64,000 bases of DNA from Oscillospiraceae bacterium (GTDB lineage: Bacteria; Bacillota; Clostridia; Oscillospirales; Ruminococcaceae), in the NCBI GenBank assembly GCA_017427265.1, contig JAFRTG010000021.1, forward strand, positions 458,464 to 522,463, written 5' to 3'. The notes beneath the pieces are model-generated. The model searched no databases, was not told where the DNA came from, and saw nothing but the letters and a program-made list of their open reading frames with translations. The position numbers and the translations under genes are program-made. Below are positions 9,370-23,769 of this stretch, in pieces. Each line of letters opens with the position of its first letter. Position 1 is the stretch's first letter.

Positions 9370-11946
9370 ATGGCAAACAAAAGCACGTACAGCGCTGCTT
9401 CCCGTACCGGCATCACCGTGATGACGATCATTTTCCTTTGGTGCTTCGGCGTGGCATTGCTCATCGTCATTCTGAATATGCTGCTCGGCTTTGCCGATAA
9501 CGACGCGGAATTCCGTACCGCGTTTCTCTCTATGACGGAGGAACGGGAGTTTGAAACGCTGCAGCACTATCTGGAACTGAGCCAGCGTTACAAAACCGCG
9601 TCCGAAGACGAGGCTTCTGCTATGGCGGAAACACTGCAGACGTATCAGAAACGGTATAATCCGCTGAATACGAATCTGCGCTTTCAGGTTACGGATTCTG
9701 ACGGTACACTGCTGCTGACCAACGATCCGAACGCCGGCACCATTCAGACGGAGATGGCCTCCGATGTCTATCCGGTCACAATCATTACTGAGGAAAGAGA
9801 TATTCAGGAAAGCGTGCATTTTGATGACCCGCTCAAATCCTTCAGCGAGATCGTCTACGGTGATAATTCCAGATTTCTTTCCAATCCTGCTGACTTTCAG
9901 CTCTGGTTTTTCTCAGATGACGACGTGGATAATGCCTACCATCAGTCGCTGCCGATCGTGCAGGGACGCGAGCCGTATACGGATTATATGGTCTTTCGCT
10001 CCGAGGAGGAGGCAAAGGAATTTGACTATACCGCCGCTTACGGCAAGCTGTGTACATGGGAAATCGTTGCTACGTCGGCAAAGAATCTTGCTGAAATCGA
10101 GGATGAGAACGGGCAGCTGCGCTCGTCTGTCGTGACCTCGGTGACTGACAGCGATGATGCTGACGAGAAGGAAACCCTGGTTTTGCCGGATGAATATCTG
10201 GAATCAGATGAAACCAAAACCGTTGTGAAGTATAAGGCCTATGGGGCGGAATCTGAATTTGAAGTTCCGCTGGCGCAGTATTATGAGATGAAAAACCGCG
10301 GGAAAACCGTTGTTGCCGCCAATCCGGAGCTTGAGAAAAAGCTGACAAGCGGACTGGATATCACAATCCGCGGACAGAACATCAAGACCCTTTCCTGCGA
10401 TATCCGCACCTATCTGCCGGAGGAGCTGACCGTCGATGACACGATCAAAACCAATTATGCAGTCTTTCATTCCCTGTTCCGGCACGGTGAGTGGTCGGTC
10501 ATTGCGATGTTCGTGTTCCTTGTGCTGGCTGTCATTTCCGGAATTCTGATGTGCTCCTGGGCGGCTGAGCCCGATGAAAACGGCGAGGTCAATGTTTCGC
10601 CTGTGCACGGCATCATCTATGAATTCTTCTGGCTGCTGCCGGCGCTGGTGTTCATGGCGGCTGTCTTTTTGCTGCAAAGCCTGCTGGATGCAAACAGTTC
10701 CTACCGGCTGATTGCTGTTTTCAGCGTCGGGATGGTGTTCTGCATCAGTGCGTGCAGCGTGCTCTGGCTCTATACCACGGCCGTGCGCACCAAGACCGGC
10801 AAGTTCTGGAGCAGCTTCGGATTCGCAAGAGTCCTGAACTTCCTTTTTTCGATGCTGCGCATCGGAACGGTTTCCATCGGCGCTTTTGTGCTGTATGCAC
10901 TGTTCCTGTTCCTCATCAATGTGTTCGTTCTCCCGCAGATGGACATCTGGATGATGCTGCCGATTATCGTACTGGATGTTCTGACGGTCATCGGCGTCAG
11001 CTACTGCATCTATTCTTACTTTGAACTGCACAGGCATGTCCGCCAGATGGAAACAGGCGATTTTTCGCCCGCGGATCATGCGATTCCGCTCGGCGGCGAT
11101 TTTTCCCGCTTTGACCGTTCGCTGAATGAGATCACCGACCGCGTCAGCGAGATCGTTGCCAAGCAGACCAAGGCGGAGCATCTCCGGACGGAGCTCATTA
11201 CCAATGTCTCCCATGACCTCAAAACACCGCTGACCTCGATCGTCAATTATGTCGATCTGCTCAGCCGCGAGCCGATGGCTTCCGAGAATGCTGCGGAATA
11301 TCTCGATGTGCTCAAGCGACAGGCCGCAAAGCTCAAAAAGCTGACCGTCGATCTGGTCGATGCTTCCAAGGCCTCGACCGGAAACCTGACCGTCGAGCTG
11401 ATGCCGACGGATATTCAGGTGCTGCTCTCGCAGCTGGCCGGTGAGTACGAGGGACAGCTTGCTGAAAAATCGCTCTCGATGGTCATGAACGCCCCGGAGG
11501 AGCCGATCATGATTCTTGCGGACGGCCGCCATATCTGGCGCGTGTTCGACAATCTGCTCAACAACGCCGGAAAATATGCGCTGGCCGGCACACGCATCTA
11601 TCTCGATGTCCGGAAGATTGGCGACGAGGTCGAAATCTCCCTGAAAAATATTTCTGCCATGCCGCTCAATATTTCGCCGGATGCGCTGATGGAGCGCTTT
11701 GTCCGCGGGGATGCTTCGCGTCATACCGAGGGCAGCGGTCTGGGCCTTTCCATTGCAAAGGATCTGACATCGCTGCAGAACGGCAAGCTGCTGCTTGAAA
11801 CCGACGGCGATCTCTTCAAGGCGATTCTGCGCTTCCCGATTTATCATCTGCCGGAGCCGGAGTTTTCTCCGGAATCCGCACTGCCCGATGCGGAATATCT
11901 GCCGGAGCAGCAGAACGAGATACCTGAAACAGAGGAGGAATCATAA
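9370..11946 (+). CDS. Polytopic sensor histidine kinase
   Basis: The 858-residue kinase has an N-terminal membrane segment (about 15-38), a large extracytoplasmic domain to about 370, then a cluster of five hydrophobic segments between about 375 and 550, a HAMP-like linker, HisKA with H615 in NVSHDLKTPLTSIVNY, and a HATPase domain with N box DNLLNNAGKYAL and G box GSGLGLSIAKDL. Length and the multi-span module are unusual for an OmpR-partner kinase. AGGAGGTG lies upstream with a rather long gap. Its TAA overlaps the ATG of the SIMPL gene by one base. Confidence 0.93.
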   Translation: MANKSTYSAASRTGITVMTIIFLWCFGVALLIVILNMLLGFADNDAEFRTAFLSMTEEREFETLQHYLELSQRYKTASEDEASAMAETLQTYQKRYNPLNTNLRFQVTDSDGTLLLTNDPNAGTIQTEMASDVYPVTIITEERDIQESVHFDDPLKSFSEIVYGDNSRFLSNPADFQLWFFSDDDVDNAYHQSLPIVQGREPYTDYMVFRSEEEAKEFDYTAAYGKLCTWEIVATSAKNLAEIEDENGQLRSSVVTSVTDSDDADEKETLVLPDEYLESDETKTVVKYKAYGAESEFEVPLAQYYEMKNRGKTVVAANPELEKKLTSGLDITIRGQNIKTLSCDIRTYLPEELTVDDTIKTNYAVFHSLFRHGEWSVIAMFVFLVLAVISGILMCSWAAEPDENGEVNVSPVHGIIYEFFWLLPALVFMAAVFLLQSLLDANSSYRLIAVFSVGMVFCISACSVLWLYTTAVRTKTGKFWSSFGFARVLNFLFSMLRIGTVSIGAFVLYALFLFLINVFVLPQMDIWMMLPIIVLDVLTVIGVSYCIYSYFELHRHVRQMETGDFSPADHAIPLGGDFSRFDRSLNEITDRVSEIVAKQTKAEHLRTELITNVSHDLKTPLTSIVNYVDLLSREPMASENAAEYLDVLKRQAAKLKKLTVDLVDASKASTGNLTVELMPTDIQVLLSQLAGEYEGQLAEKSLSMVMNAPEEPIMILADGRHIWRVFDNLLNNAGKYALAGTRIYLDVRKIGDEVEISLKNISAMPLNISPDALMERFVRGDASRHTEGSGLGLSIAKDLTSLQNGKLLLETDGDLFKAILRFPIYHLPEPEFSPESALPDAEYLPEQQNEIPETEEES

Positions 11947-12620
11947 TGCCGCGTACCATCGCAGTTACCGGAACCGGAGAAATCCGCGTCAAGCCGGATA
12001 TTATTCAGATTACGTTTACACTCACCGCAAAAAATACGCACTACAGCGACATGATGCAGCAGGCAGACACACAGCTTTCGGCACTGCAGGCGGCTGTCAG
12101 CCGTTCCGGCATCCGCGCAGAGCAGCTGAAAACCACTGATTACAGCGTGAATACGGAATATGAGCACCTTGCTGACGAAACCGGTAATTACCGGCAGGTC
12201 TTTGCGGGGTATGTCTGCAGACATACGCTGCTGCTGGAGCTGCCGCTGGATATGGCGCTGCTTTCAGGCGTACTGCGCGCCGCTGAGGACAGCCTCACCG
12301 AGCCCGAATTCCTGATTACCTTTACGGTGCGGGACCGGCAGAAGGTACAGGCTCAGGCGCTGAAGGTCGCTGCAGAACAGGCGCGCTGCAATGCTGAGGT
12401 GCTCGCAGCCGCAGCCGGTGTACAGCTCGGACAGCTGCTTTCGATTTCCAATCACAGCACGGTGCAGCCGATGATCTCACCCACGAACTATACCATGCTG
12501 CGTGCGAAAATGGCGGACGGCGTCTGCGGCGCCGGTGCGGCCATTACACCGGAGGATATCCGCACGCAGGAAACTGCTGAACTGATCTGGGAAATTACGG
12601 ATCTTCCTCCGACAGAATGA
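11946..12620 (+). CDS. SIMPL (DUF541) domain protein
   Basis: A 224-residue protein beginning ITVTGTGEI-like (IAVTGTGEIRVKPDIIQI), the signature opening of SIMPL/DUF541 proteins, with LKTTDYSVNTEYEH and a C-terminal region typical of the family. No signal peptide is seen, whereas many relatives are exported. The biochemical role of the family is not settled. It is translationally coupled to the kinase, so a role in the same pathway is likely. Confidence 0.85.
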   Translation: MPRTIAVTGTGEIRVKPDIIQITFTLTAKNTHYSDMMQQADTQLSALQAAVSRSGIRAEQLKTTDYSVNTEYEHLADETGNYRQVFAGYVCRHTLLLELPLDMALLSGVLRAAEDSLTEPEFLITFTVRDRQKVQAQALKVAAEQARCNAEVLAAAAGVQLGQLLSISNHSTVQPMISPTNYTMLRAKMADGVCGAGAAITPEDIRTQETAELIWEITDLPPTE

Positions 12621-12631
12621 TGCTTTCGGGT

Positions 12632-12663
12632 GCGGCTCACTGCAAGTGAGCCGCTTGTTTTTT
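12632..12663 (+). terminator. Terminator of the two-component/SIMPL operon
   Basis: Stem GCGGCTCACT/AGTGAGCCGC with a three-base loop, then TTGTTTTTT. A near copy lies at 21594-21624. Confidence 0.85.
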
Positions 12664-12675
12664 GCCCATATTGAC

Positions 12676-12704
12676 TTGATGAAACGGAAGGATTATGGTA
12701 TAAT
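12676..12704 (+). promoter_or_regulatory. Promoter of the 12749 gene (block A)
   Basis: TTGATG (12676-12681), 17 bases, TATAAT (12699-12704). The sequence around it is nearly identical to that at 21637-21665 (block B). Confidence 0.75.
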
Positions 12705-12748
12705 GATATGGTACGAAACGCTATTTGAGATTGCGGAGGTATTCGTCT

Positions 12749-13192
12749 TTGGGACATATGATTAGAGCAATCATCGGAAAAAATACTGTCATTCAATCAA
12801 TTACAGATCATTGGGTATCTGCGGAGATGATAAAGCTTCCACAAGACTATGCTCTCACATTCCTGAATGATTACTTATTTGATGATATTGAAGAGCTGTG
12901 TGATTTGAAAAATACCTGTAATTATCCTTGTCTAAGCTATCTTACAGATTCCGTTATCGAATTTCTGAAAGATAAGTCAATTGGAGCGCAATTGGTTTAC
13001 ATGGAAACAGACTACTTTGGAGGGTACGGAACGCAGGCAGGTGTGTTTTTTGAAAACGGTGAAATGAAATGCGAACCAATGGACGGCGACGGTACCGTCA
13101 ATCATCTATTAAGACTATTAGGTGTAAGAAAGCAATTGCTAAAAGATGAATTTGATTCTTTAGAATTATATAAATATCGGCGCATGGATTAA
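12749..13192 (+). CDS. Hypothetical soluble protein, payload of block A
   Basis: A 147-residue acidic protein read from a TTG placed 9 bases after GGAGG; an ATG at 12758 is the alternative. No membrane segments or recognised motifs. It is visibly AT-richer than the neighbouring operon, suggesting transfer. Size and composition resemble immunity-type proteins, but that is only an impression. It is bracketed by a promoter and an inverted repeat that also bracket the alpha/beta hydrolase at 21.7 kb. Confidence 0.65.
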   Translation: MGHMIRAIIGKNTVIQSITDHWVSAEMIKLPQDYALTFLNDYLFDDIEELCDLKNTCNYPCLSYLTDSVIEFLKDKSIGAQLVYMETDYFGGYGTQAGVFFENGEMKCEPMDGDGTVNHLLRLLGVRKQLLKDEFDSLELYKYRRMD

Positions 13193-13211
13193 GTGTATAG
13201 AAATCAGTTCA

Positions 13212-13269
13212 AAATCCTTAGTAGTAAAACACCCCGATTTCTACTACTATTTTACTACTAACGACGTCC
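13212..13269 (+). repeat. Inverted-repeat block A
   Basis: A 58-base block containing a perfect 12-bp inverted repeat, TTAGTAGTAAAA (13218-13229) and TTTTACTACTAA (13250-13261), with an extra TACTACTA between. An equal-length, mostly identical block lies at 22693-22750. It follows the payload gene in both places. Possible recombination site or operator. Confidence 0.75.
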
Positions 13270-13398
13270 GCAATTTGCTAAAACTTGCCGCGCTTTGTAG
13301 TTTTCACCCCGTTCTGCCAAATTGGTAGTAGGAAAGAAAAGCTTCGATATACCGCGCAAAATACGGCAATACTGAGCAAATCAGAGAGGAAAAAACGT

Positions 13399-13497
13399 AT
13401 GATAAAAGTAATGTTTGTGTGCCACGGCAACATCTGCCGCTCGCCGATGGCAGAGATGCTGCTGAAGGAAATGGTTCGGCAGCGCGATGATTTATGA
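13399..13497 (+). pseudogene. Truncated 5' end of a low-molecular-weight protein tyrosine phosphatase gene
   Basis: Encodes only 32 residues: the first 29 match the intact phosphatase at 22880 (MIKVMFVCHGNICRSP and on), then DDL and stop. The active-site loop C8-x5-R14 is kept but the rest of the fold, including the Asp general acid, is missing, so it cannot be an active enzyme. It marks the left end of the island. Confidence 0.9.
13420..13486 (+). repeat. 67-bp direct repeat, left copy (attL-like)
   Basis: Identical over 67 bases to 22901-22967, inside the 5' coding region of the phosphatase gene. The sequences diverge immediately to the right. Consistent with an attachment site or with a duplication junction. 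Confidence 0.85.
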
Positions 13498-13757
13498 TGA
13501 GGGCTTTGCCATCAAACTTTCGCCGGGGACATATCTCCAGACCCCATTTTGATATAAAACAACGCTTTTGCAGATATTTCATCAAAGCGGGATTCCAAAG
13601 GGTTACGACCCTTTGACGGGGCTTGGCTGAGTTTGCCTGCAAACTCATAGCGAAGCGGGCGAGAGAGCCCGTGATCAATCCATCGGAGATACTTCTTTAT
13701 CGGCAGACTGAGAGGACGCCCTGCTGTGCGGGGCGTCCTCTTTCTGTGATGATTCGG
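13498..13757. other. Non-coding stretch with repeat module and hairpin
   Basis: Contains a module (about 13612-13695: GCGAAGCGGGCGAGAGAGCC..ATCGGAGATACTT) related to 33580-33645, and a strong hairpin GAGGACGCCC/GGGCGTCCTC (13710-13738) just past the GH5 stop that probably serves as its terminator although its U-tract is poor. Confidence 0.6.
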
Positions 13758-15428
13758 TTATTGTCTGAGAAGCATCTGCTTCAGCAGCGTCAGGTCAATG
13801 GCGTTGATTACCTGATTGACATCGAGATCGGCCTGCTTGGCCTGCTCGCTGTTCAGCTGCTCATTGCCGATCAGATATTTGCGCAGCATGTCTGCATCCG
13901 CTGCGGACACATTGCCGTCCAGGTTGATATCTCCGCCGGATGCCTGTTTGCCGACTGCCGTGAATGTAATCTTGTCAACATTGAATCCGCCCTGCTGTGC
14001 ACTCAGCTTCAGATCGGATTCGCCGGCAGGAAGCTCCAGCGTCACCTTGAACTGCTGCCAGTTCTGCCAGCCGCCGGTCGCCGGAATATCAAGCGTGCCG
14101 AGCGTATTGCCGCCGCAGGAGAATGCAATTTGTCCACCGCCGCTTTCAGATGCAGCATCCAGCGTCAGCTCATATTTCATCGTCTGCGGCACAGAGATTG
14201 AATAGCTCATCCAGTCTCCTGATTCAATATATCCGACATTCTTGCCGCCCTGTGCGCAGTCCTCCAGCTCCACGCCGCTCATGGAAGTATAGTTTTCAGC
14301 TTCCAGTACCGCATTGCCGGAGCCGGGCAGTGAAAGCCGTCCAATGCTCTGCGGCGTGCTCGTTGTAGTCTGCGGTTCGGTATTCTGCGGATCAGGCGCT
14401 GTAGTCTGCGTCTGGGGCTCGGTGCCGCTCTTCGGAACGGTTCGCCATACTGCAGTCTCAGCATGTGTGTTCAGGATCGTTTTGAGGTAGTTGCCGGCTT
14501 CTGTCAGTGAGCTGCCGTCTCCGCCGAAAATACTGGAACCCTCTGCCTTGCTGCTGATCGCCCAGTTGCACCAGGAGAGTTTGTTGGAATCCATCCATGA
14601 AAGCCACTGTTCTGTCGATCCGACATTGACGGAACCGTCGCCGTCTGCATTGACCGTTCCCCATTCGGATACAAAGACTGCTGCATTTTTGCTGAGTGCC
14701 GCATCGCCCTTTCCGCGCAGATCGCCGCCGTGCGTACCGGCATAAAAATGCAGAACATATGCAACATTGCTGTCATTGATCGGATCGTTTGCAGCTGCAT
14801 CGACATCCTGAGACCATGTCGGTGTGCCGACGATAATCAGATTGTCCGAGTATTTGCGGATCTCCGGAATCACCTGCTCGGCATAGCCTTTCACGGTGGA
14901 CCAGGAGACCTGTGTCGGTTCATTGTAAAGCTCAAAGATCACATTGTCATATTTTCCGTAATCACGCGCAATCTCGGAGAAAAAACTCTTTGCTGCATTC
15001 GTGTTATTATGTGCGCCGTGCGAATGCCAGTCCACAATCACGTAGATATCCTTTGCAATCGCCGCATCCATGACGGAGCGCAGCGCGCCGACGTCTCCGC
15101 CGCTGTAGAGCGAGCCCTGATCGTCTACGCCGAGCGAGCAGCGCAGAATCTCACACTTGAACTCCTCAACCATACGGTCAACGGTGCCGCTGTTCCAGTA
15201 CTGCCCCTGCCAGTTGCTCCAGAAAAAGCTCATTCCCTTGACCTGCACCGGTTCCGTGTAGGATGAACCGATGATCTTGTTTCCGCTGGTCTGAAGCTGA
15301 CCGTAATAGCTGACCGGTCCGCTCTCTGTCGCTGAAACCTCCGAATCAGGTACAGGCAAGACCCGCGGAAGGAGTACAGCTGACATCACCAATGCGCAGA
15401 CTGCACTGAACGCTTTTTGAATTTTCAT
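13758..15428 (-). CDS. Secreted GH5 endoglucanase-type enzyme with CBM6-like domain and dockerin
   Basis: A 556-residue protein: signal peptide 1-33, GH5 catalytic domain about 45-320, Pro/Thr/Gln-rich linker, CBM6-like module about 370-492, and type I dockerin about 497-556 (GDINLDGNVSAADADML and DLDVNQVINAIDLTLL). The acid/base is E170 in IFELYNEP and the nucleophile E255 in VFVSEWGT; VKGMSFFWSNW is typical of the bacterial subfamily 2 cellulases. Likely a cellulosomal endo-beta-1,4-glucanase. GAGGGG precedes the ATG. It lies just inside the island's left end, transcribed against the phage remnants. Confidence 0.92.
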   Translation of the reverse strand: MKIQKAFSAVCALVMSAVLLPRVLPVPDSEVSATESGPVSYYGQLQTSGNKIIGSSYTEPVQVKGMSFFWSNWQGQYWNSGTVDRMVEEFKCEILRCSLGVDDQGSLYSGGDVGALRSVMDAAIAKDIYVIVDWHSHGAHNNTNAAKSFFSEIARDYGKYDNVIFELYNEPTQVSWSTVKGYAEQVIPEIRKYSDNLIIVGTPTWSQDVDAAANDPINDSNVAYVLHFYAGTHGGDLRGKGDAALSKNAAVFVSEWGTVNADGDGSVNVGSTEQWLSWMDSNKLSWCNWAISSKAEGSSIFGGDGSSLTEAGNYLKTILNTHAETAVWRTVPKSGTEPQTQTTAPDPQNTEPQTTTSTPQSIGRLSLPGSGNAVLEAENYTSMSGVELEDCAQGGKNVGYIESGDWMSYSISVPQTMKYELTLDAASESGGGQIAFSCGGNTLGTLDIPATGGWQNWQQFKVTLELPAGESDLKLSAQQGGFNVDKITFTAVGKQASGGDINLDGNVSAADADMLRKYLIGNEQLNSEQAKQADLDVNQVINAIDLTLLKQMLLRQ

Positions 15429-15597
15429 ATATTTGCCCCTCTCAAAAAATATTTTGATTTACGCATTTTATCATGCGCCAATCACAGTGTTATGCGCATC
15501 AGTCCGGCTGTGTCTCTGTTCGCCTGATTCAGGACTGATCCGGAAGCGTTCCTTTCTCTCATTGTGATTCTAAAAAAGTATGGGATATCTATTTATT

Positions 15598-15626
15598 ATT
15601 ATAGCATTTTTTGGGCAGTTAGACAA
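15598..15626 (-). promoter_or_regulatory. Promoter of the GH5 gene
   Basis: Minus strand TTGTCT (15621-15626), 17 bases, TATAAT (15598-15603), leaving a leader of about 165 bases. The rest of the 15429-15761 gap shows nothing else I can name. Confidence 0.65.
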
Positions 15627-15761
15627 GACTTTCGCAATTATTTGGCACTATACTATGATTATGCATAAAGATATTCAACATATTTATAAATAAACAGTGC
15701 GATCGTCCTCACGCATCGTGGCTGCTTTCATCATGCGGCGGGTTATTCTGAGCTTTTATGA

Positions 15762-16244
15762 TGGACGGTCAACAGCTCGTGGTCGTGGGGACGCGACCTC
15801 ATGCAGAACCTCATCAACGGCATCACTTATATGCTCGGCAGCCTGATTAACACAGTCGCGGATGTGGCGCGTTCCATCTGGGAATACCTGCATTTCTCCG
15901 TACCTGAAAAGGGTGCGCTGACCGATGTGGAGGAGTGGATGCCGGACTTCATGAAGGGGCTTGCAAAGGGCATCGACAAGAGCAAGAAGTACGTTGAGAC
16001 GGCTGTGTCCGGTGTGGCTGATGCCATGACGCTGACGATGCAGTCCGGGCTGAACGTCGATCTGGACGGGCGGGGAGCCCCCGCTGGCAATTACGGCGCA
16101 ATGATGAACGGCGGCAGCGGCGGTGTGGTCAACAACTACTACAATAACGACAACAGCCGCACAGTGAATCAGACAAACAATAGTCCGAAATCACTGTCAC
16201 GGCTGGAAATCTATCGTATGACAAGGAATGCGCTGAATGTGTGA
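15762..16244 (+). pseudogene. C-terminal remnant of a phage tail tape measure protein
   Basis: An open frame follows a stop at 15759-15761 and reads SSWSWGRDLMQNLINGI, the helical repeat motif of tape measure proteins, and ends SPKSLSRLEIYRMTRNAL, a common tail-protein C terminus. The annotated ATG would be 15801. The N-terminal hundreds of residues are gone. At 16068-16092 the frame contains a 25-nt exact reverse-complement match to the 31-bp REP-like unit, translated in frame as GRGAPAGN, apparently a repeat acquired by the gene. Confidence 0.8.
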
Positions 16245-16290
16245 TGGGGTGGGAGCAATCCTGCCTCTGTACATATTAAGATAAAGACAA

Positions 16291-16989
16291 TTATGAAATT
16301 AGATTTTCGAGAATGCTTCTAATCATACTTTTAGTGGTTAACTCAAATAAATATATTCCTTCGCTGAAATTGTAAGAAGAAATATAAAAACTATCCGATA
16401 CAGTGTTGTCTAATTGCGCCAATTCTTTAGCATGGTTGCTAATTGCCAATACTTTTGTTTTGAATTCTTCTGTAATTTTTCCGTTCTCATGTACTATTTG
16501 ATTGCGATAAATTCTATATTTATCTAGCAATTTTAGATCATTTTGGTGTGAAGTGGGTATACTTGAAAAATCAACATTAAACGCTTTAAAGATATTTTCC
16601 CACCTTATTTTCAAATTTCCCATTAGATAGTTATCTATTTTTTTATCGCTAATTATATCCATGCCTTGAGTAGTTCTGTAGTCATTAGCTATTTGAAGGA
16701 GAGAGTCGCAGAACGTTTCAAAAATTGTTAGTAATGAAACTAATAGTAGATTACGAACTGTGCCATAGTATTTATCCCCAGAGGCTTTCAGAATAGAGCA
16801 TTTATATGAATCAACTTTTGAATATAGACTACCGTCTTCGCTTAGTCCGAAGATGATGCTAGATGGATTATTACTCTCATTATAATACAGTGTGGTAGCA
16901 TAAACATTACGAATCATCTCTAGTTGTTGAACAAATTGAGTTTGTATGTTATTGATTTCTTTAATGATATCCATGTTCTTATTGTCCAT
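16291..16989 (-). CDS. HEPN-like protein, possible phage-defence RNase
   Basis: A 232-residue, mostly helical protein with YRIYRNQIVHENG at 158-170. R162-NQIV-H167 fits the R-x4-6-H motif of HEPN RNase domains, which follow a long helix as here. HEPN proteins often act as toxins or in abortive infection. It is strikingly AT-rich and lies opposite in strand between two phage tail gene remnants that would normally be adjacent, so it looks like a moron gene. The start is uncertain: an ATG at 16974 gives better spacing to AAAGG. Family is inferred from the motif only. Confidence 0.6.
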   Translation of the reverse strand: MDNKNMDIIKEINNIQTQFVQQLEMIRNVYATTLYYNESNNPSSIIFGLSEDGSLYSKVDSYKCSILKASGDKYYGTVRNLLLVSLLTIFETFCDSLLQIANDYRTTQGMDIISDKKIDNYLMGNLKIRWENIFKAFNVDFSSIPTSHQNDLKLLDKYRIYRNQIVHENGKITEEFKTKVLAISNHAKELAQLDNTVSDSFYISSYNFSEGIYLFELTTKSMIRSILENLIS

Positions 16990-17063
16990 CCTTTCTATGG
17001 CTTAGAATTGCTACATACACATATTATACATCAAACCAAAAGAAAAAGCAAGGAGGCGATGCA

Positions 17064-17338
17064 ATGTTATTTAGCCTTATCTTAGAGAATGAAGCCGGAG
17101 ATCAGATTGACATGACCGCCACGGCAAATCAGTATATGACATCGCGGGTGGAAGGACTGAATCCTCCACCGGCACGATCAGCACCTCCAGCTATGCGGGC
17201 ATGGACGGCAGCTTCCTCAATAACGCCTTTATCGAGAAACGGAACGTCGTCATTTCCTTTGAGATGAATCAGACAGCGAGGATATTGGTGAATACTACTA
17301 TGCGCTTAATCACCCGAAGATGTGCAAAGTTATCGTAA
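17064..17338 (+). pseudogene. Frameshifted phage distal tail protein fragment
   Basis: Begins MLFSLILENEAGDQIDMT after AGGAGGCG. Near 17170 the coding frame shifts and continues as TGTISTSSYAGMDGSFLNNAF..EKRNVVISFEM before stopping. The combined reading resembles the N-terminal domain of Dit-type tail proteins, which follow the tape measure gene in siphophages. The C-terminal part is missing. Confidence 0.65.
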
Positions 17339-17486
17339 CACAATCAATAACAGATAAGAAAATAGCGATGAAAATTCGCAAGGATTTCAACGTTCCAATG
17401 GGAATAGGAGAGTTTCTGATGTTTTGCAAGCACACTCCCTGTACTATAAATGATAACTTCTCTTATAATTACGGCAAAGAACTCAT

Positions 17487-17723
17487 CTCAAGGGAGCCAA
17501 GAAGTGCAGTATCCTGATGCTGATTATTGTTGCGGTGCGTCTGGATATTCTGCTCAACACGAATTATGTCCGTGATGCGGTGTGCATCGGTTTCTGTGTC
17601 AATGAGCTGCTCTCCATCGTGGAAAACACATCGCTCATGGGCATTCCGTATCCGCCTGCACTGAAAAACGCCATCGAGGTGTTGCAAAAGCAGACCGGCA
17701 GAAAGGATGATAAGGATGATTAA
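17487..17723 (+). pseudogene. Phage holin, N-terminally truncated remnant
   Basis: The frame reads LKGAKKCSILMLIIVAVRLD, then NYVRDAVCIGFCVNELLSIVEN and IPYPPALKNAIEVL, which is the second half of a phage lysis holin of the toxin-secretion family. The first membrane segment is missing and the only ATG (17517) lies inside the remaining segment. It overlaps the endolysin start region, the normal lysis cassette order. Confidence 0.75.
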
Positions 17724-18891
17724 GACCTACGGCTATACCGATAATACGCAGCTCTCTCTGCACTTCAATGCACGAGAGTTTCGCTGCAAATGCGGCAAGG
17801 AGCATGACTTCCAGATTGACGATGACCTGATCGGCAAACTGGAAAAGCTGTATACGGCGCTGAACTGCTCCAAGATTATCGTCACCAGCGGGTTCCGCTG
17901 CGTGGCGCACGATAAGTCTGTCGGCGGCAGCGGAACGGGACAGCATACACTCGGCAAGGCTGCCGATACCTGCTGCTACGGTCAGGACGGTCAGGCGATT
18001 TCCAGCAAGACCGTCTGCTGCAAGGCTCAGGACACCGGTTTCAAGGGTATCGCAAACATCACTGCCGCCTACATCTATACACACGTTGACGTGCGCTCCG
18101 GCGGCAAGTGGTACGGTGATGAGGTACACGGCAACAGCAGCGTGACCGATGATTTCTATAAATACTTCGGAGGCGAGGATATGAAGGGCATCGATGTCAG
18201 CGTCCATAACGGCAAGATCGACTGGCAGAAGGTCAGAACTGCGGGCATTGATTTTGCGATTCTCCGTGCCGGTTACGGCAGGCTTGCATCGCAGAAGGAT
18301 GATCGTTTTGAGGAAAATTATGCGGGTGCAAAGGCTGCCGGTATTCTGGTCGGTGCTTACTGGTACAGCTATGCCATGAGCGAGGACGAGGCTCGTCTGG
18401 AGGCGGACGTGTTCCTGTCGGTCATCAAGGGAAAGCAGTTTGAGTTCCCGGTCTATTTTGATCTGGAGGAGAAAAAGCAGTTTGACCTCGGCAAGGACAA
18501 GGTGTCTGCCATTATGCGGGCGTTCCTCGAAAGAGTCGAGGCTGCGGGCTACTTTGTCGGTCTGTACGGTTCTGCTTCTTCGCTTACTACACATACCGCT
18601 GATGACATCAAGTCCCGCTACACGATCTGGCTGGCACACTGGATGGACAAGACCAATTACACCGGCGCATACGGTATCTGGCAGCACTCCGAGAAAGGCA
18701 GCGTGAACGGCATCAACGGCAATGTCGATCTGGACAACGGCTACAAGGATTTCCCGTCCATCATCAAGGCGAAGGGGCTGAACGGCTACGGAAAGGAGCC
18801 GAATCCGCCTGCGCCTGCTGCGGAGGATGGCATTACCGTTGAGGTCGTATTGGACGGTCAGAAGTACAGCGGAAAACTGAATAAGGCATGA
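17716..18891 (+). CDS. Two-domain phage endolysin (M15 peptidase plus GH25 muramidase)
   Basis: A protein of about 391 residues. The N-terminal 1-145 is a Peptidase_M15_3-type domain with SGFRC, GQHTLGKAAD and YTHVDVR supplying zinc ligands; 155-360 is a GH25 lysozyme starting KGIDVSVHNGKIDWQKV with the catalytic acidic residues in FPVYFDLEEK and ending GNVDLDNGY; a short tail EVVLDGQKYSGKLNKA follows. It should cut both peptide and glycan bonds. The ATG at 17716 has AAAGG 9 bases upstream; 17707 has none. It is the only intact phage gene here. Confidence 0.9.
   Translation: MIKTYGYTDNTQLSLHFNAREFRCKCGKEHDFQIDDDLIGKLEKLYTALNCSKIIVTSGFRCVAHDKSVGGSGTGQHTLGKAADTCCYGQDGQAISSKTVCCKAQDTGFKGIANITAAYIYTHVDVRSGGKWYGDEVHGNSSVTDDFYKYFGGEDMKGIDVSVHNGKIDWQKVRTAGIDFAILRAGYGRLASQKDDRFEENYAGAKAAGILVGAYWYSYAMSEDEARLEADVFLSVIKGKQFEFPVYFDLEEKKQFDLGKDKVSAIMRAFLERVEAAGYFVGLYGSASSLTTHTADDIKSRYTIWLAHWMDKTNYTGAYGIWQHSEKGSVNGINGNVDLDNGYKDFPSIIKAKGLNGYGKEPNPPAPAAEDGITVEVVLDGQKYSGKLNKA
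18861..18889 (+). repeat. 29-bp direct repeat, left copy (endolysin 3' end)
   Basis: Identical to 20295-20323. In this copy it is the end of the endolysin coding sequence. The two copies flank a two-gene cargo with its own promoter and terminator. Confidence 0.85.
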
Positions 18892-18898
18892 AAAAAGG

Positions 18899-18932
18899 GC
18901 TGTCGGGGATTTCTCTCCGGCAGCACTTTTTT
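18899..18932 (+). terminator. Terminator of the endolysin gene
   Basis: Stem GCTGTCGGGG/CTCCGGCAGC (G:U pairs allowed), then ACTTTTTTG. Confidence 0.75.
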
Positions 18933-18943
18933 GCGTATAGTGA

Positions 18944-18972
18944 TTGAAAATCAGGTCCGATTGTGGTATAAT
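18944..18972 (+). promoter_or_regulatory. Promoter of the two-gene membrane cargo
   Basis: TTGAAA (18944-18949), 17 bases, TATAAT (18967-18972); start codon 52 bases downstream. Confidence 0.7.
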
Positions 18973-19023
18973 TGGGAATGTTAGAGTAATGCGGTGATGA
19001 GAATATAGAAAAAGGAGTAATAG

Positions 19024-19764
19024 ATGAAGATTATTTTTAGAATCATTGTAGGGATCGTTCTGATCTTATGGATCATATTTGGTCTCATATTGCATGGACT
19101 GGTCGTATTATTTTTTAATGACAAAGAAACAGCGTTGACGATTTTTTGTTTCGTTCTTACGCTTGTGTGGTGGGGAATTTCAGTCCTCATCACACGAGTA
19201 CTGATAGAATGGAAAAAAGAGAGCGTACAGGAAAGAAAAGCTGAAGAATACAAGAAAAAATACTTATCCGATGTCGAGATCGTGAATGCTTATTTCGGAA
19301 ATGGTATTTTAGTAAAGGATTCGGGTTCCGAAAATATCTATTATAAAGATATAAAAAGCGGATTTGACAGAATGTTTGATTCCTTCGGCAAAAAAAGCGA
19401 TGACCCTTGCGACTTGTATGAATTTATTGTTAGAGAAGATAATATAGAATTTGTTCTTGCTTCGCTGGAGAAGATCTACAAAAAATCTGATCAGATCATG
19501 GAAGAATGTTATGATGAAATATATAAAGAACTTGTTGAGTTCCTTAATGAGACTTGTGATGATTGTTTAAAGGATGATTTTGATCTGGCTTATTTAAAGG
19601 AAAACTGGAATGTTTATGGAATAGCGATTTATGATGATAAGGTAGAATTTTCGATTGGAATAAATGCTGCCAAAGACCCGGAAGATGACAGCAATTATGC
19701 TATAATCATATTTGTTGACTATGAGACGCAGGAAGCGGAAGTATCCTTTGAAGTTGTATGGTAA
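19024..19764 (+). CDS. Membrane protein with acidic cytosolic domain, unknown function
   Basis: A 246-residue protein with two N-terminal membrane segments (about 4-33 and 38-62) and an acidic C-terminal domain of about 180 residues (ECYDEIYKELVEFLNETCDDC; FSIGINAAKDPEDDSNYAIIIFVDY). I do not recognise it. AT-rich, with AAAGGAG before the start. It is followed 15 bases later by a DUF3592-like gene; the pair lies between two copies of the endolysin 3' end. Confidence 0.65.
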   Translation: MKIIFRIIVGIVLILWIIFGLILHGLVVLFFNDKETALTIFCFVLTLVWWGISVLITRVLIEWKKESVQERKAEEYKKKYLSDVEIVNAYFGNGILVKDSGSENIYYKDIKSGFDRMFDSFGKKSDDPCDLYEFIVREDNIEFVLASLEKIYKKSDQIMEECYDEIYKELVEFLNETCDDCLKDDFDLAYLKENWNVYGIAIYDDKVEFSIGINAAKDPEDDSNYAIIIFVDYETQEAEVSFEVVW

Positions 19765-19779
19765 AGGAGATTTATCGGT

Positions 19780-20280
19780 TTGAAAAAGGAAAAGGAAAAC
19801 AAGAATAAAGAAGAAATACTTATACCTAATTTCACGTTGCTTCTTGCACTTATATTCTTTTTATTAGGAGCATTTCCGATGTTTAGCTACTGGAATAGGG
19901 TGAAAAAATGTACAGTTGAAATAAGAGGAGTCGTTGTTGACGAGAGAATAAGTTCAAAAAAGATTCCTGATACATCAGATCCGAAAAACAGGTATTTATG
20001 GGGTAGAGCTTATAGTGATATTAAGGTCGACACTGATGGCATTTTCAAATATGATCACCTTTATGCAGGGGCAGGTGTCGGAAAAAAAGGCGATGCAATC
20101 ATCATCCGCTACGATCCCGATGATCCTGATGAATACTATTTCGTAGGCTATTATAGTAATGGAAGAACATTTGCTACATTTACTTGGGGCGTAAGCGGAA
20201 GTATGATAATATTATCATTGTTTTTCTTTGTTTACTACAATATACCGCTTCTTTTTCCAAAGAAAAAGGAAGACAATTGA
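19780..20280 (+). CDS. DUF3592-like membrane protein
   Basis: A 166-residue protein from a TTG start 9 bases after AAAGGAG. It has one membrane segment near 18-38, an extracytoplasmic domain with VEIRGVVVDERI and IIIRYDPDDPDEYYFVG, and a second membrane segment near 130-155, the layout of DUF3592 proteins. Function unknown. Second gene of the cargo. Confidence 0.65.
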   Translation: MKKEKENKNKEEILIPNFTLLLALIFFLLGAFPMFSYWNRVKKCTVEIRGVVVDERISSKKIPDTSDPKNRYLWGRAYSDIKVDTDGIFKYDHLYAGAGVGKKGDAIIIRYDPDDPDEYYFVGYYSNGRTFATFTWGVSGSMIILSLFFFVYYNIPLLFPKKKEDN

Positions 20281-20294
20281 ATTGTGGATGGTCT

Positions 20295-20323
20295 GAAGTA
20301 CAGCGGAAAACTGAATAAGGCAT
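20295..20323 (+). repeat. 29-bp direct repeat, right copy
   Basis: Identical to the end of the endolysin gene (18861-18889); here it is a coding remnant ending in TAA, immediately before a terminator. Confidence 0.85.
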
Positions 20324-20331
20324 AACAGCAG

Positions 20332-20367
20332 CGCCCGTCGGGATTTTTTTCTCGACGGGCGTTTTTT
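20332..20367 (+). terminator. Terminator after the membrane cargo
   Basis: Stem CGCCCGTCG/CGACGGGCG followed by TTTTTT. Confidence 0.85.
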
Positions 20368-20450
20368 CTTTTGCTAAAATCCGAAAAAGTGTCCTATTGG
20401 TAATGAAAAGATATGCAGGGGGTTAATTTTACCGTGCATTTCTTTGACTG

Positions 20451-20492
20451 ATGCCGAACATCACGCCTCACGTCTGCCGCCACACCTACTGC
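20451..20492 (+). pseudogene. Tyrosine integrase remnant, box II region
   Basis: Reads MPNITPHVCRHTYC, the conserved H-x2-R-H box of Tn916-type tyrosine integrases (catalytic His and Arg). The frame breaks at once into serine recombinase sequence. The matching C-terminal end lies at 21466-21582. Confidence 0.75.
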
Positions 20493-20494
20493 AG

Positions 20495-21406
20495 ATACTT
20501 CACAACTACACCTACCTCGGACACCTTGTTCAGCTCCGTACAAGAACGGTCAGTTACAAGAATCACAAGGTTATTAAGAATGACGAAGAAGATATGATCG
20601 TTGTAAAAAATACGCATGAGCCTATCGTTTCTCAGGAGCTTTGGGACAGGGTTCGTGAGATGGAGCAGTCGGTGTCACAGGGCAAGCGTAACAGCAGCGG
20701 CTATGTGGCAAATCTCAGCGGTTTGATCTACTGTCAGGACTGCGGAAACAAAGTCCGCCTTGCGTGGAATAATACCACCAACGGCAGTAAGAAAAAGCCG
20801 AGAAAGTATCTTCGCCACAATTACAACTGCACGTCCTACATGAAGTTCGGAAAACGTTACTGCCCCAGCCATTATATCAAAATGCAGGATATGGACGCTA
20901 TTGTGTTGGAGGATATTCGCAGTATGGCGAGCCTTGTGGTGGAAGATGAGGACGGTGCAAGAAAAAAGTTCCTTGCCCGAAAAGCAAAGAACCAGGAGGG
21001 AAAGCATTCTGTTGATACCAAGAAGCTGACAGAGGGCAGATACCGCTTGCAGGAGCTTGATATGCTGATCCAGAACATCTATGAAGACAAAGTCCTCGGT
21101 AAGGTATCTGAGGATGTAGCGATGAAGCTGATAGCGAAATATGAAGCCGAGCAAAAAGAGCTGTCTGCCGAAGTCACAGAGCTTGAAGAAACGCTCTCCA
21201 CGATAAGGCAGGACGAAGAAGATGTGGTTATGTTCATGGAGCGCCTGAGAAAGTACACCGATGTGCAGGAGCTTACCCGTGAGATGTGCTTAGAGCTGAT
21301 CGAGTATATCACCCTTGATGCCTATGTCGAGGGACAGCCCCGTGGGATTTACATCTACTACAAGCTGCTCGACGAACCGTTGAAAGACAAAAGAAGCCTG
21401 TTTTAA
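20495..21406 (+). pseudogene. Large serine recombinase, C-terminal remnant
   Basis: About 300 residues beginning ILHNYTYLGHLVQLRTRTVS, which lies in the recombinase domain, then NTHEPIVSQELWDRV, a zinc-ribbon CQDCG..C..C-type segment, a coiled-coil region (about 190-260) and ELIEYITLDAYVEG near the end. The N-terminal resolvase domain with the catalytic Ser is absent, so it cannot recombine DNA. It is placed between two pieces of a tyrosine integrase. Confidence 0.85.
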
Positions 21407-21465
21407 GGCGTATTTATGTTGTTTACACACCATACGAAAGTGTGTTACCATTTGGCAAGGGGACT

Positions 21466-21582
21466 ACTCTTGACGTTTATACGCATCTGGGGCTGGAGGA
21501 CGCTGCTGCGGAGCTTCACCGCATGGAGGAAGTCCAGAACGCCAGACAGGAAATGAACAGAACAAAGGATGAAGCAGTATGA
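21466..21582 (+). pseudogene. Tyrosine integrase remnant, C-terminal end
   Basis: Reads TLDVYTHLGLEDAAAELHRM and on to a stop. It contains the catalytic Tyr of Tn916-type integrases (DVYTH). Between this and the 20451-20492 piece about 25 integrase residues have been lost and replaced by the serine recombinase remnant. Confidence 0.8.
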
Positions 21583-21593
21583 TATGCTCAGCT

Positions 21594-21624
21594 GCGGCTC
21601 ACTTCGGTGAGCCGCTATTTTTTT
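21594..21624 (+). terminator. Terminator (block B copy)
   Basis: Stem GCGGCTCAC/GTGAGCCGC, TTCG loop, then TATTTTTTT. Near copy of 12632-12663. Confidence 0.85.
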
Positions 21625-21636
21625 GCCCGTTTTGAC

Positions 21637-21665
21637 TTGATGAAATGGAAGGATTTTGGTATAAT
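21637..21665 (+). promoter_or_regulatory. Promoter of the alpha/beta hydrolase gene (block B)
   Basis: TTGATG (21637-21642), 17 bases, TATAAT (21660-21665), with flanks nearly identical to block A. Confidence 0.75.
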
Positions 21666-21721
21666 AAAATAATACGGTCAGAATTGATAATGACAGATTG
21701 AGAAATATGCGGAGGTATGAA

Positions 21722-22702
21722 ATGGCTTGGCGTGTTTTAACAAAGGAAGGGCAGAAAAGAAGAAAGCGTTCTAATATAATCGTAAGTATTGTTTTGATCG
21801 CTTTGCTTTTGGCTGGCTTTTTGCTCTTTCACCCGCTGACGGTAACGCATAATCTTAACATGCTGACAGAAAAGGGATACTATAATCCTGTATCTGTCGG
21901 AGATTATTCGCTGAATCTGCTGAAATTCGGCAATGAGAACGGCAGCCATAAGATTGTTGCACTGGCAGGATTCGGCGTTGGTGACAGCTCCGTATCCATG
22001 CGGAAAATGACTGCTGAACTGGAAAACGATAATCAGATCGTTTTCCTTGACCGTGCAGGCTATGGCGCAAGCGATGATACAAAAGCGGATATGCATGTGG
22101 GTACAATCGTCGAAGATTACCGGACTGCACTGAAAAATGCCAATGTGGAAGCACCGTATACCTTAATGGCACATTCCATAGCAGGCGTTTATGCTTCTTA
22201 TTGGGTAAGTAAATATCCCGATGAGATCGACAGCGTAATTCTTTTAGACACCACATGGTTGTTAGATGAAAATGCCGAAGAAAATGTTACTTCTGCGGTG
22301 GTTTCAGAGTATGCGAAATATTTTGCGTCAAAAATCGGGTTGGTGGATCTGCTCATGCCGTCCTCCGTTGACGGAACAAAAGAGGAGAAGAAGATCGCGA
22401 AAGCACTCACTTCAATGACAATGGATTCCCGCGCACTCATATCCGAAGCAAAATTCGAACCGGAGAATATCAAAGATACCCTTGCAGTTCTTTCGCCGAA
22501 TGATATTCCGAAATTATACATACAATGCGGAAAAGAACTTCCGGATGAGGCGAGAAAAAATCTGGAGCGCTATACAGACAGGCTCGGTAATTGTCAGATT
22601 GCATTACTCGACTCCGGTCATTTGATGTATTTGGAAAAGCCTGATGAAAGCGGTAAGATTATCCGGGATTTTTTAGATGAAAATACTACCCTAAATCCTT
22701 AG
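21722..22702 (+). CDS. Membrane-anchored alpha/beta hydrolase
   Basis: A 326-residue protein with a basic N terminus, one membrane segment (about 20-40) and an alpha/beta hydrolase fold: IVALAGFG oxyanion region, VFLDRAGYGASDD, nucleophile elbow AHSIAG (Ser), and C-terminal LLDSGHLMYLEKPDE with the catalytic His. The ATG at 21722 follows GGAGG; an upstream TTG is less likely. Substrate unknown. Paralogous to the partial gene at the right edge. It is the payload of block B. Confidence 0.82.
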   Translation: MAWRVLTKEGQKRRKRSNIIVSIVLIALLLAGFLLFHPLTVTHNLNMLTEKGYYNPVSVGDYSLNLLKFGNENGSHKIVALAGFGVGDSSVSMRKMTAELENDNQIVFLDRAGYGASDDTKADMHVGTIVEDYRTALKNANVEAPYTLMAHSIAGVYASYWVSKYPDEIDSVILLDTTWLLDENAEENVTSAVVSEYAKYFASKIGLVDLLMPSSVDGTKEEKKIAKALTSMTMDSRALISEAKFEPENIKDTLAVLSPNDIPKLYIQCGKELPDEARKNLERYTDRLGNCQIALLDSGHLMYLEKPDESGKIIRDFLDENTTLNP

Positions 22703-22750
22703 TAGTAAAACACCCTGTGTTTACTACCATTTTTACTACTAACGATGTCC
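22693..22750 (+). repeat. Inverted-repeat block B
   Basis: Same 12-bp inverted repeat as block A: TTAGTAGTAAAA (22699-22710) and TTTTACTACTAA (22731-22742), in a 58-base block of equal length. It overlaps the last codons of the hydrolase gene. Confidence 0.75.
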
Positions 22751-22879
22751 TTAGAATGCTAAGATTTGCCGCAATTTGCCGAGTTAGCCCCGAATTTTGA
22801 CAGAATCAATACACCCGTTCGTCAAAGTATACAAAGGCAAATTGCGGCAAAACACGGCAAATCACGGAGGTTTCAGGCT

Positions 22880-23356
22880 ATGATAAAAGTTATGTTTGTC
22901 TGCCACGGCAACATCTGCCGCTCGCCGATGGCAGAGATGCTGCTGAAGGAAATGGTTCGGCAGCGCGGTCTTGCGAACCGTTTTGTGATCGCGTCCAGTG
23001 CGACGAGCACGGAGGAAATCTGGGGCGGGCAGGGGAATCCCGTTTATCCGCCTGCGCGGGATGAACTGAAGCGCCGCGGCATCCCCTGCGAGAACCATCA
23101 TGCTGTGCAGCTGACGAAGCGCGACTACGCGGATTATGACTATCTGATTGGCATGGACAGCATGAATCTGCGCAATATGCAGCGCATCACCGGCGGAGAT
23201 AAGGACGGAAAAATCTATAAGCTGCTGGATTTTACAGACGACGGCGGAGACGTTGCCGATCCGTGGTACAGCGGAAAGTTCGGCAAAGCATATGACGATA
23301 TTGCACGCGGCTGCGAGGGTCTGCTGGTGCATCTGGAAAGGAGCGGTTTACTGTGA
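22880..23356 (+). CDS. Low-molecular-weight protein tyrosine phosphatase
   Basis: A 158-residue enzyme with active-site loop VCHGNICRSP (C8, R14) and the C-terminal DPWYSG that supplies the general acid Asp. It dephosphorylates phosphotyrosine, and possibly phosphoarginine, in the cytosol; the exact substrate cannot be read from sequence. CGGAGG lies upstream. Its stop overlaps the next gene's start by 4 bases. The first 90 bases are duplicated at 13399, and the gene forms the right edge of the island. Confidence 0.93.
   Translation: MIKVMFVCHGNICRSPMAEMLLKEMVRQRGLANRFVIASSATSTEEIWGGQGNPVYPPARDELKRRGIPCENHHAVQLTKRDYADYDYLIGMDSMNLRNMQRITGGDKDGKIYKLLDFTDDGGDVADPWYSGKFGKAYDDIARGCEGLLVHLERSGLL
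22901..22967 (+). repeat. 67-bp direct repeat, right copy (attR-like)
   Basis: Identical to 13420-13486; lies within codons 8-30 of the intact phosphatase gene. Confidence 0.85.
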
Positions 23357-23769
23357 TCCGACCGATTTGCAGAGATACGGTATTGCTTTCCAAGCCGGCC
23401 GAAAAAGCAACAAACGCCGATTTGCAGACCGCCCGCGATCTTGCGGAAACACTCCTTGCAAATGCGCAGAGATGCGTCGGCATGGCCGCGAATATGATCG
23501 GGGTACCCAAAAGCATCATTGCAGTGCTGCCGCCCGGTATGCAGCAGCCGCTTGTGATGCTGAATCCGCAGATCATTGCAAAATCCGGCGCCTATGATAC
23601 AGAGGAAGGCTGTCTTTCTCTGCCGGGCGAGCGTCCGGTCACGCGGTTCCGGGTGATTACGGTTAAGTGGCAGGATATGTCGATGCGCCCGCAGAAGCGG
23701 CGCTTTGAGGGCTATCTTGCGCAGATCATTCAGCATGAAACCGATCACTGCGGCGGCATCCTGATCTGA
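23353..23769 (+). CDS. Peptide deformylase-like protein with altered motif I
   Basis: A 138-residue protein with deformylase motifs II (EGCLSLPG, C87) and III (HETDH, 128-132), the three zinc ligands. Motif I, normally GxGxAAxQ, reads GMAANMIG: the Gln that contacts the substrate and zinc-bound water is Met48. Deformylases remove the N-formyl group from nascent proteins. The C-terminal extension is short. It may be a divergent but active form or a paralogue with another job. It starts within the last 4 bases of the phosphatase gene, so the two are coupled. Confidence 0.82.
   Translation: MIRPICRDTVLLSKPAEKATNADLQTARDLAETLLANAQRCVGMAANMIGVPKSIIAVLPPGMQQPLVMLNPQIIAKSGAYDTEEGCLSLPGERPVTRFRVITVKWQDMSMRPQKRRFEGYLAQIIQHETDHCGGILI

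Follow-up and report, generated by a model that had tools for sequence, protein, structure and literature searches.

The stretch of DNA analysed here, referred to as the window, comprises 64,000 nucleotides from an Oscillospiraceae bacterium and contains the start of a low-molecular-weight protein tyrosine phosphatase (LMW-PTP, hereafter PTP) gene twice, once in truncated form (13399-13486, plus strand) and once as the beginning of an intact gene (22880-23356, plus strand; PF01451). The interval between the two is probably a decayed prophage of a family that inserts into PTP, with its right end surviving at the intact gene, and the left copy would be the right end of an older element truncated by recombination with a repeat. 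A preliminary description of this region had reported a 67-bp direct repeat, and all 67 bases are indeed the same at 13420-13486 and 22901-22967, a length that makes a chance origin within 64 kb far-fetched. Counted from the start codon, the left copy has 88 bases (29 codons plus one base), and the 67-bp identity closes, on the right, a longer but imperfect repeat (13212-13486 versus 22693-22967, about 76%), accompanied by a second repeated block (12613-12715 versus 21575-21676, about 81%); in genome-wide searches, each repeated stretch was found at two places in the 3.82-Mb genome. The phage and recombinase debris noted earlier inside the interval is also present, in the form of matches to tape-measure, holin, and endolysin proteins, a serine recombinase represented by its C-terminal half, and two tyrosine integrase pieces, along with a non-phage 2.05-kb GH5/CBM6/dockerin cellulase block. 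No tRNA was found in the window, and a tRNA attachment site was rejected on that ground.

Evidence for a PTP-inserting family comes from relatives of the same genus, inferred to be Ruminococcus, in which 19 PTP loci in 18 genomes were surveyed. About 200 bp upstream of PTP are common to 18 of the 19 loci (the exception being G027) and fall into three sequence types, two of the regions being cut by contig ends. Five of these loci encode a 415-aa integrase upstream of PTP and in the same orientation, and the one tested contains Tn916-integrase and phage-integrase domains (PF02920 and PF00589). Upstream of the integrase, homologs of the window lysin occur in G025, G007, G029, and G010, with a short piece in G019, and homologs of the window tape-measure piece in G025. 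A scan with five aligned integrases returned at least 404 relatives, from which the best 80 genome loci were kept together with 8 viral loci; two weak viral loci (23% identity) were left out of the counts. For 63 genome loci, the closest ones, drawn from these best 80, the downstream sequence extends for 3 kb or more; PTP follows the integrase on the same strand at a distance of 0.3-7.2 kb in 46 of the 63, and in 45 of these linked loci the PTP match starts at residue 1 or 2. The core motif described below was found in 14 of the other 17 loci, the exceptions being L136, L179, and L180. Hosts of the integrase loci are mostly Clostridia, with one Schwartzia record (L184). The target codons encode FVCHG, which we take to be part of the LMW-PTP catalytic P-loop, and their conservation is a plausible reason for the broad host range. 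At one locus (L131:2139-2954), the array runs into a PTP match from which the first 67 residues are missing, and the target gene is apparently broken.

The proposed attachment core lies within the 5′ end of PTP, has the sequence TTTGTNTGCCACGGCA, and ends at +31 of the gene (13414-13429 in the left copy and 22895-22910 in the intact gene). A search with the core motif gave 55 hits in 18 records, of which the 30 within fetched stretches were inspected. At 24 core junctions outside PTP (22 plus two in G010), PTP homology is lost at the core: the 28 bases that follow share 2-10 matches with the window PTP, and the corresponding figure for three true PTPs, obtained alongside, is 18-21. Multiple cores at a single locus were seen in several genomes, such as Blautia Marseille-P3087 (five within 53 kb) and R. 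flavefaciens XPD3002 (two 21 kb apart), which suggests that elements stack in tandem. In G030 (L268), two core motifs stand 1.2 kb apart (reverse-strand positions 2795 and 3969), the second belonging to PTP, a possible mini-element.

One pair of relatives represents an empty and a filled site that differ only upstream of the core. Contigs G027:C59 (empty) and G008:C91 (filled) are 99.9% identical over 3,263 bp from PTP +14 onward and unrelated before it. In G027, the preceding reading frame, which shows a CxxC...CxxC pattern, overlaps the GTG start of PTP through its terminal GTGA, so that the upstream sequence looks native, and in G008 the gene is preceded by an element-type region and begins with ATG. 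Insertion thus appears, in this single pair, to uncouple PTP from its upstream neighbour and to supply a new start. The earlier suggestion that PTP is re-promotered by the element accordingly agrees with the arrangement of this pair, in which the element seems to replace everything upstream, including the start codon. In the proposed mechanism, the Tn916-type integrase of a widespread prophage family would recombine inside the codons for FVCHG and cut PTP at about codon 10, and the element would provide the ribosome site, the ATG, the first codons, and, presumably, the promoter.

Several features of this family can be recognised in the interval. The last 40 residues of a Tn916-type integrase, with stop codon, are encoded at 21460-21582 (plus strand; 85% identity to residues 376-415), and a 19-residue remnant (residues 336-354, one internal stop) is found at 20439-20495 (plus strand; match to G000:C18:478902-478958, E 2.5e-4); in addition, the right end is joined to PTP at the core, and phage structural and lysis genes are present. 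A family-type left end, with PTP homology ending at TGCCACGGCA and a left arm following, was not found in the window, and the element is defective there. Between the serine recombinase described further below and PTP, the integrase tail is followed, 12 bases on, by a terminator-promoter module (copy 2; 21591-21677, plus strand; nhmmer E 5.4e-25; hairpin -18.8 kcal/mol), an alpha/beta hydrolase gene as the last cargo cassette (21698-22702, plus strand; PF00561), and a type-B element-type upstream region with a ribosome site (22693-22879, plus strand), identified by alignment with relatives. The hydrolase has counterparts with 89-91% protein identity at the same place in G024, G001, and G025, and the type-B region together with the PTP start is 97% identical to G019 over 247 bp. 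This arrangement would be intact from 21591 to 23356, and the module probably transcribes the hydrolase, the attachment region, and PTP together, since a terminator scan lists none between the hydrolase and PTP. The gene after PTP (23353-23769, plus strand), labelled a deformylase in the preliminary description, has a homolog 3′ of PTP in 12 of the 19 relative loci searched.

The left side has a comparable layout that ends differently. The SIMPL-domain gene (an open reading frame at 11946-12620, plus strand; the name follows the preliminary description), the last of an RR-HK-SIMPL group, runs from its stop directly into module copy 1 (12630-12718, plus strand; nhmmer E 4.9e-24; hairpin -18.7 kcal/mol; TTGATG-17-TATAAT with TG before the -10), and the downstream sequence native to relatives is absent here. 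There follows gene X, an open reading frame for 155 residues and presumed cargo (12725-13192, plus strand), for which no Pfam or PHROGs match was found and which, among 30 genus genomes including its own, occurs only as the window copy and as a broken fragment in G019. Next comes a type-A element-type PTP upstream region (13212-13398, plus strand), recognised by alignment with relatives and marked by the inverted repeat AGTAGTAAAA/TTTTACTACTAA and GGCA repeats; with the PTP start it is 92% identical to G012 over 245 bp. Both PTP upstream regions of the window are element-type, so neither looks native. The left copy stays PTP to +88, past the core end, and then enters a dispersed intergenic repeat (13487-13710) with 49 match rows in the genome, pieces counted; such a repeat may drive rearrangements. 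A G003 match had hinted that 13487-13562 might be native SIMPL downstream sequence, an assignment rejected on recognition of the dispersed repeat.

In six of the nine other fetched copies of this repeat, the alignment extends into PTP by 18-24 bases, L128 being an example, with GAAAATGGTTCCGCTGCGCG opposite GGAAATGGTTCGGCAGCGCG, and the left copy was probably joined to the repeat via this imperfect homology. Beyond it lies the cellulase block (13711-15760, minus strand; GH5-CBM6-dockerin by Pfam, open reading frame 13758-15428), which is 89-91% identical to a cellulase and its flanks in eight relatives, where the surroundings are other and show no PTP or phage match, and which is regarded as transplanted. 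In our interpretation, the left copy is a PTP start adjoining the right end of an older element, the whole comprising module, gene X, type-A attachment region, and PTP start (12630-13486). The PTP of that element would once have been whole and would have been interrupted at +88 when it recombined with a dispersed repeat next to the cellulase block; this event would have joined the older end to a second, now decayed prophage, whose own left end was lost. A comparable flank in R. flavefaciens XPD3002 appears to support this older-end layout: to the left of the left core there are the tail of an integrase, a module 15 bp further on, and some 64 bp similar to the type-A region.

The preliminary description further predicted an empty site in which the SIMPL operon would be followed by PTP and the deformylase gene, which was not encountered in the relatives compared. 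SIMPL homologs with the same two neighbours occur in G020, G003, G024, G002, and G001. In the first four, no PTP was found downstream of SIMPL within the 5-10 kb compared, and the contig of G001 ends about 230 bp beyond SIMPL. In G020, PTP is found on the opposite side of SIMPL at a distance of about 13 kb, and in G025, which has the closest PTP and a genome 88% complete, kinase matches reach 29% identity or less. As the pairing was not seen in relatives, SIMPL and PTP were rejected as ancestral neighbours.

From sequence and predicted folding, the repeated block upstream of the cargo consists of a terminator hairpin that leads into a promoter with an extended -10. In R. flavefaciens XPD3002, the -10 of the module is situated about 300 bp upstream of PTP. 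A profile built from Ruminococcus copies found the module only in Ruminococcus or same-genus loci among 2.48 Mb of fetched sequence, and nothing in Lachnospiraceae loci with related integrases; different modules in other families were not sought. The module lies no more than 70 bp from the integrase tail in 17 of the 24 places with room for it, the exceptions being L053 (3.5 kb), L040 (2.5 kb), L043, L104, L138, L142, and L173; L107, where the integrase is cut by a contig end, was left out of this count. It is present in 19 of the 30 genus genomes, and its 45 match rows, some of which are pieces, comprise 28 on a PTP contig, 5 on a contig with this integrase or a remnant of it, and 12 elsewhere; G015, G022, and G028 have the module and no PTP match. 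The module also stands before additional genes, there being four copies in G007 and G024, three in G002, and two in G025 and G009. In G019, G023, and G012, the module is followed by the attachment region without an intervening cargo gene. Cargo in module-bearing arrays includes DUF6985, DJ-1/PfpI, acetyltransferase, and alpha/beta hydrolase genes; stretches upstream of or between modules hold MATE, EamA, methyltransferase, TetR, HNH, and CarD genes, and several cargo genes have no family match at all. As a separate observation, in G029, from which the module is absent, the stretch from integrase to PTP contains a defence-like pair of genes, AAA_21 and RiboL-PSP-HEPN (L043:7390-9490).

Cassette blocks are shared between arrays of different species whose phosphatases are much less alike, with DNA identities of 97.8% over 893 bp in G002/G007 (PTP protein identity 66%), 99.1% over 536 bp in G002/G025 (78%, 117 residues aligned), and 96.1% over 1,165 bp plus 91.8% over 647 bp, in opposite order, in G007/G024 (58%). 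All four blocks start and stop in or beside modules or the attachment region, and we infer that cassettes move by homologous recombination at the module. It is tentatively proposed, though we would not yet lean towards it, that elements of Ruminococcus maintain a cargo dock in the stretch from integrase to attachment site, where similar modules would allow efflux, acetyltransferase, hydrolase, and DJ-1-like cassettes to be swapped between species by ordinary homologous recombination, and where each insertion would place the host phosphatase last, with its expression set by the last cassette.

Other explanations of the interval were weighed against the decayed-prophage reading. One, which we regard as rather unlikely, is that DNA of a relative, consisting of the dispersed repeat, the cellulase, the prophage remnant, and the type-B PTP, entered through two crossovers, a homologous one in PTP or the downstream gene and an illegitimate one at the repeat, with no integrase action in this genome; the homology at the left junction and the location of block 13711-15760 elsewhere in relatives fit such an event, but no donor genome with the same block order was seen. 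It also seems unlikely, and somewhat strained, that PTP was duplicated first, giving two whole genes with type-A and type-B upstream regions, the left of which was later lost to repeat-mediated deletion. G008 and G027 do have two PTP genes each, G057 has a tandem pair, and the 67-bp identity extends well beyond the core; however, the upstream types differ so strongly that a simple duplication is insufficient, and no close relative with two near-identical PTPs was seen.

A single clean site-specific insertion, with the 67 bp as attachment core and 13487 as the left end of the element, is very improbable. It shares the same gene, the same side, and the element-supplied start on the right with what was observed, and to that extent the earlier proposal of insertion in the 5′ coding region of PTP holds, in that one side keeps a truncated start and the other receives from the element its upstream sequence, its ribosome site, and its start with the first codons, as also indicated by the empty/filled pair, the 24 junctions, and the integrase-PTP linkage. 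The 67 bp themselves, in contrast, are not the footprint of that insertion and were ruled out as attachment core, because PTP homology ends at +31 in the 24 other junctions, whereas the left copy continues to +88 and then gives way to a dispersed repeat and to a cellulase block located elsewhere in eight relatives. That the cassettes form an integron-like array moved by the integrase can hardly be credited and was rejected, since, although small cassettes adjoin a tyrosine recombinase, the integrase is of the PF02920 plus PF00589 type, the repeats are terminator-promoters unlike the core, the shared blocks end in or beside a module or attachment region, and the module profile is silent in Lachnospiraceae loci with related integrases (attC sites were not searched for).

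Several points weigh against a decayed prophage joined to the right end of an older element. Neither a circular form nor a phage contig bearing attP was found; two of the six viral contigs with an integrase extend for 3 kb or more downstream of it, and no PTP or core was seen there. A stage with two PTPs was not seen in any close relative, no genome was found with the SIMPL operon beside an empty PTP, and many relatives are fragmented assemblies. The reversed core pattern gives a chance background of 9 hits versus the 55 obtained. The left flank in XPD3002 retains only the last part of the attachment region, and frames there run the opposite way. Finally, there is only one empty/filled pair, and an assembly fault in G027 is possible because its differing upstream sequence amounts to 161 bp at the end of a 3.4-kb contig.

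The remaining features of the interval belong to the presumed second prophage and its surroundings. A tape-measure fragment lies at 15761-16265 (plus strand; PHROG 58; 92.5% to contig C44 of G020), and a short fragment, a holin-like fragment, and an M15/GH25 endolysin gene (17707-18891) occupy 17022-18891 (plus strand), as assigned by Pfam, PHROGs, and relatives. The stretch that closes the endolysin gene, together with its terminator region (18851-18932), is repeated at 20285-20366, past the open reading frame 19780-20280, which suggests that the two open reading frames at 19024-20280 form a cassette inserted behind the lysin. The C-terminal half of a large serine recombinase (20444-21406, plus strand; PF07508 in part, PF13408, PF14287; PHROG 95) stands between the two tyrosine integrase remnants (residues 336-354 and 376-415; 20439-21582), and the same order is found in G012, with 88% DNA identity over 1,105 bp, and over a shorter stretch in G010.

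Several known systems resemble parts of this arrangement. The integrase of SXT/R391 elements inserts the element in the 5′ end of the host gene prfC (PMC4344509). The likeness lies in the position of the element at the 5′ end of a host gene; the differences are the host group, the target gene, the use of catalytic-loop codons, and tandem stacking. The SXT/R391 element reportedly re-supplies the prfC start. Tn916 itself is loose in its target choice, in contrast to the strong preference for one gene start seen here with an integrase that has both Tn916-type domains. Phage morons, or lysogenic conversion genes, are accessory genes that sit close to a prophage end and have a promoter and a terminator of their own; the present family differs in that several stand in a row and many are preceded by a closely similar module. 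In T4-like phages, composite promoter and stem-loop motifs (PeSL) are described as mediating gene shuffling (PMC4503421). Both there and in Ruminococcus, a terminator hairpin followed by a promoter is repeated between genes and blocks are exchanged at such motifs, a likeness at the level of description, and the module may work like PeSL. It is not one, as it belongs to integrated elements with a Tn916-type integrase and a single array between integrase and attachment site, not to a T4-like phage genome. A literature search of partial coverage yielded no paper linking LMW-PTP with prophage insertion, and none on R. flavefaciens prophages among the titles and abstract openings covered.

For the biology of these bacteria, the family provides a case of a protein-coding attachment site used by elements in many gut and rumen Clostridia, at P-loop codons that are hardly free to change. 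The observations suggest that mobile DNA repeatedly replaces the upstream control of a signalling phosphatase. They also point to a natural cassette array with relatives in the cultured strains R. flavefaciens FD-1 and XPD3002, in which the shuffling of cargo genes could be followed.

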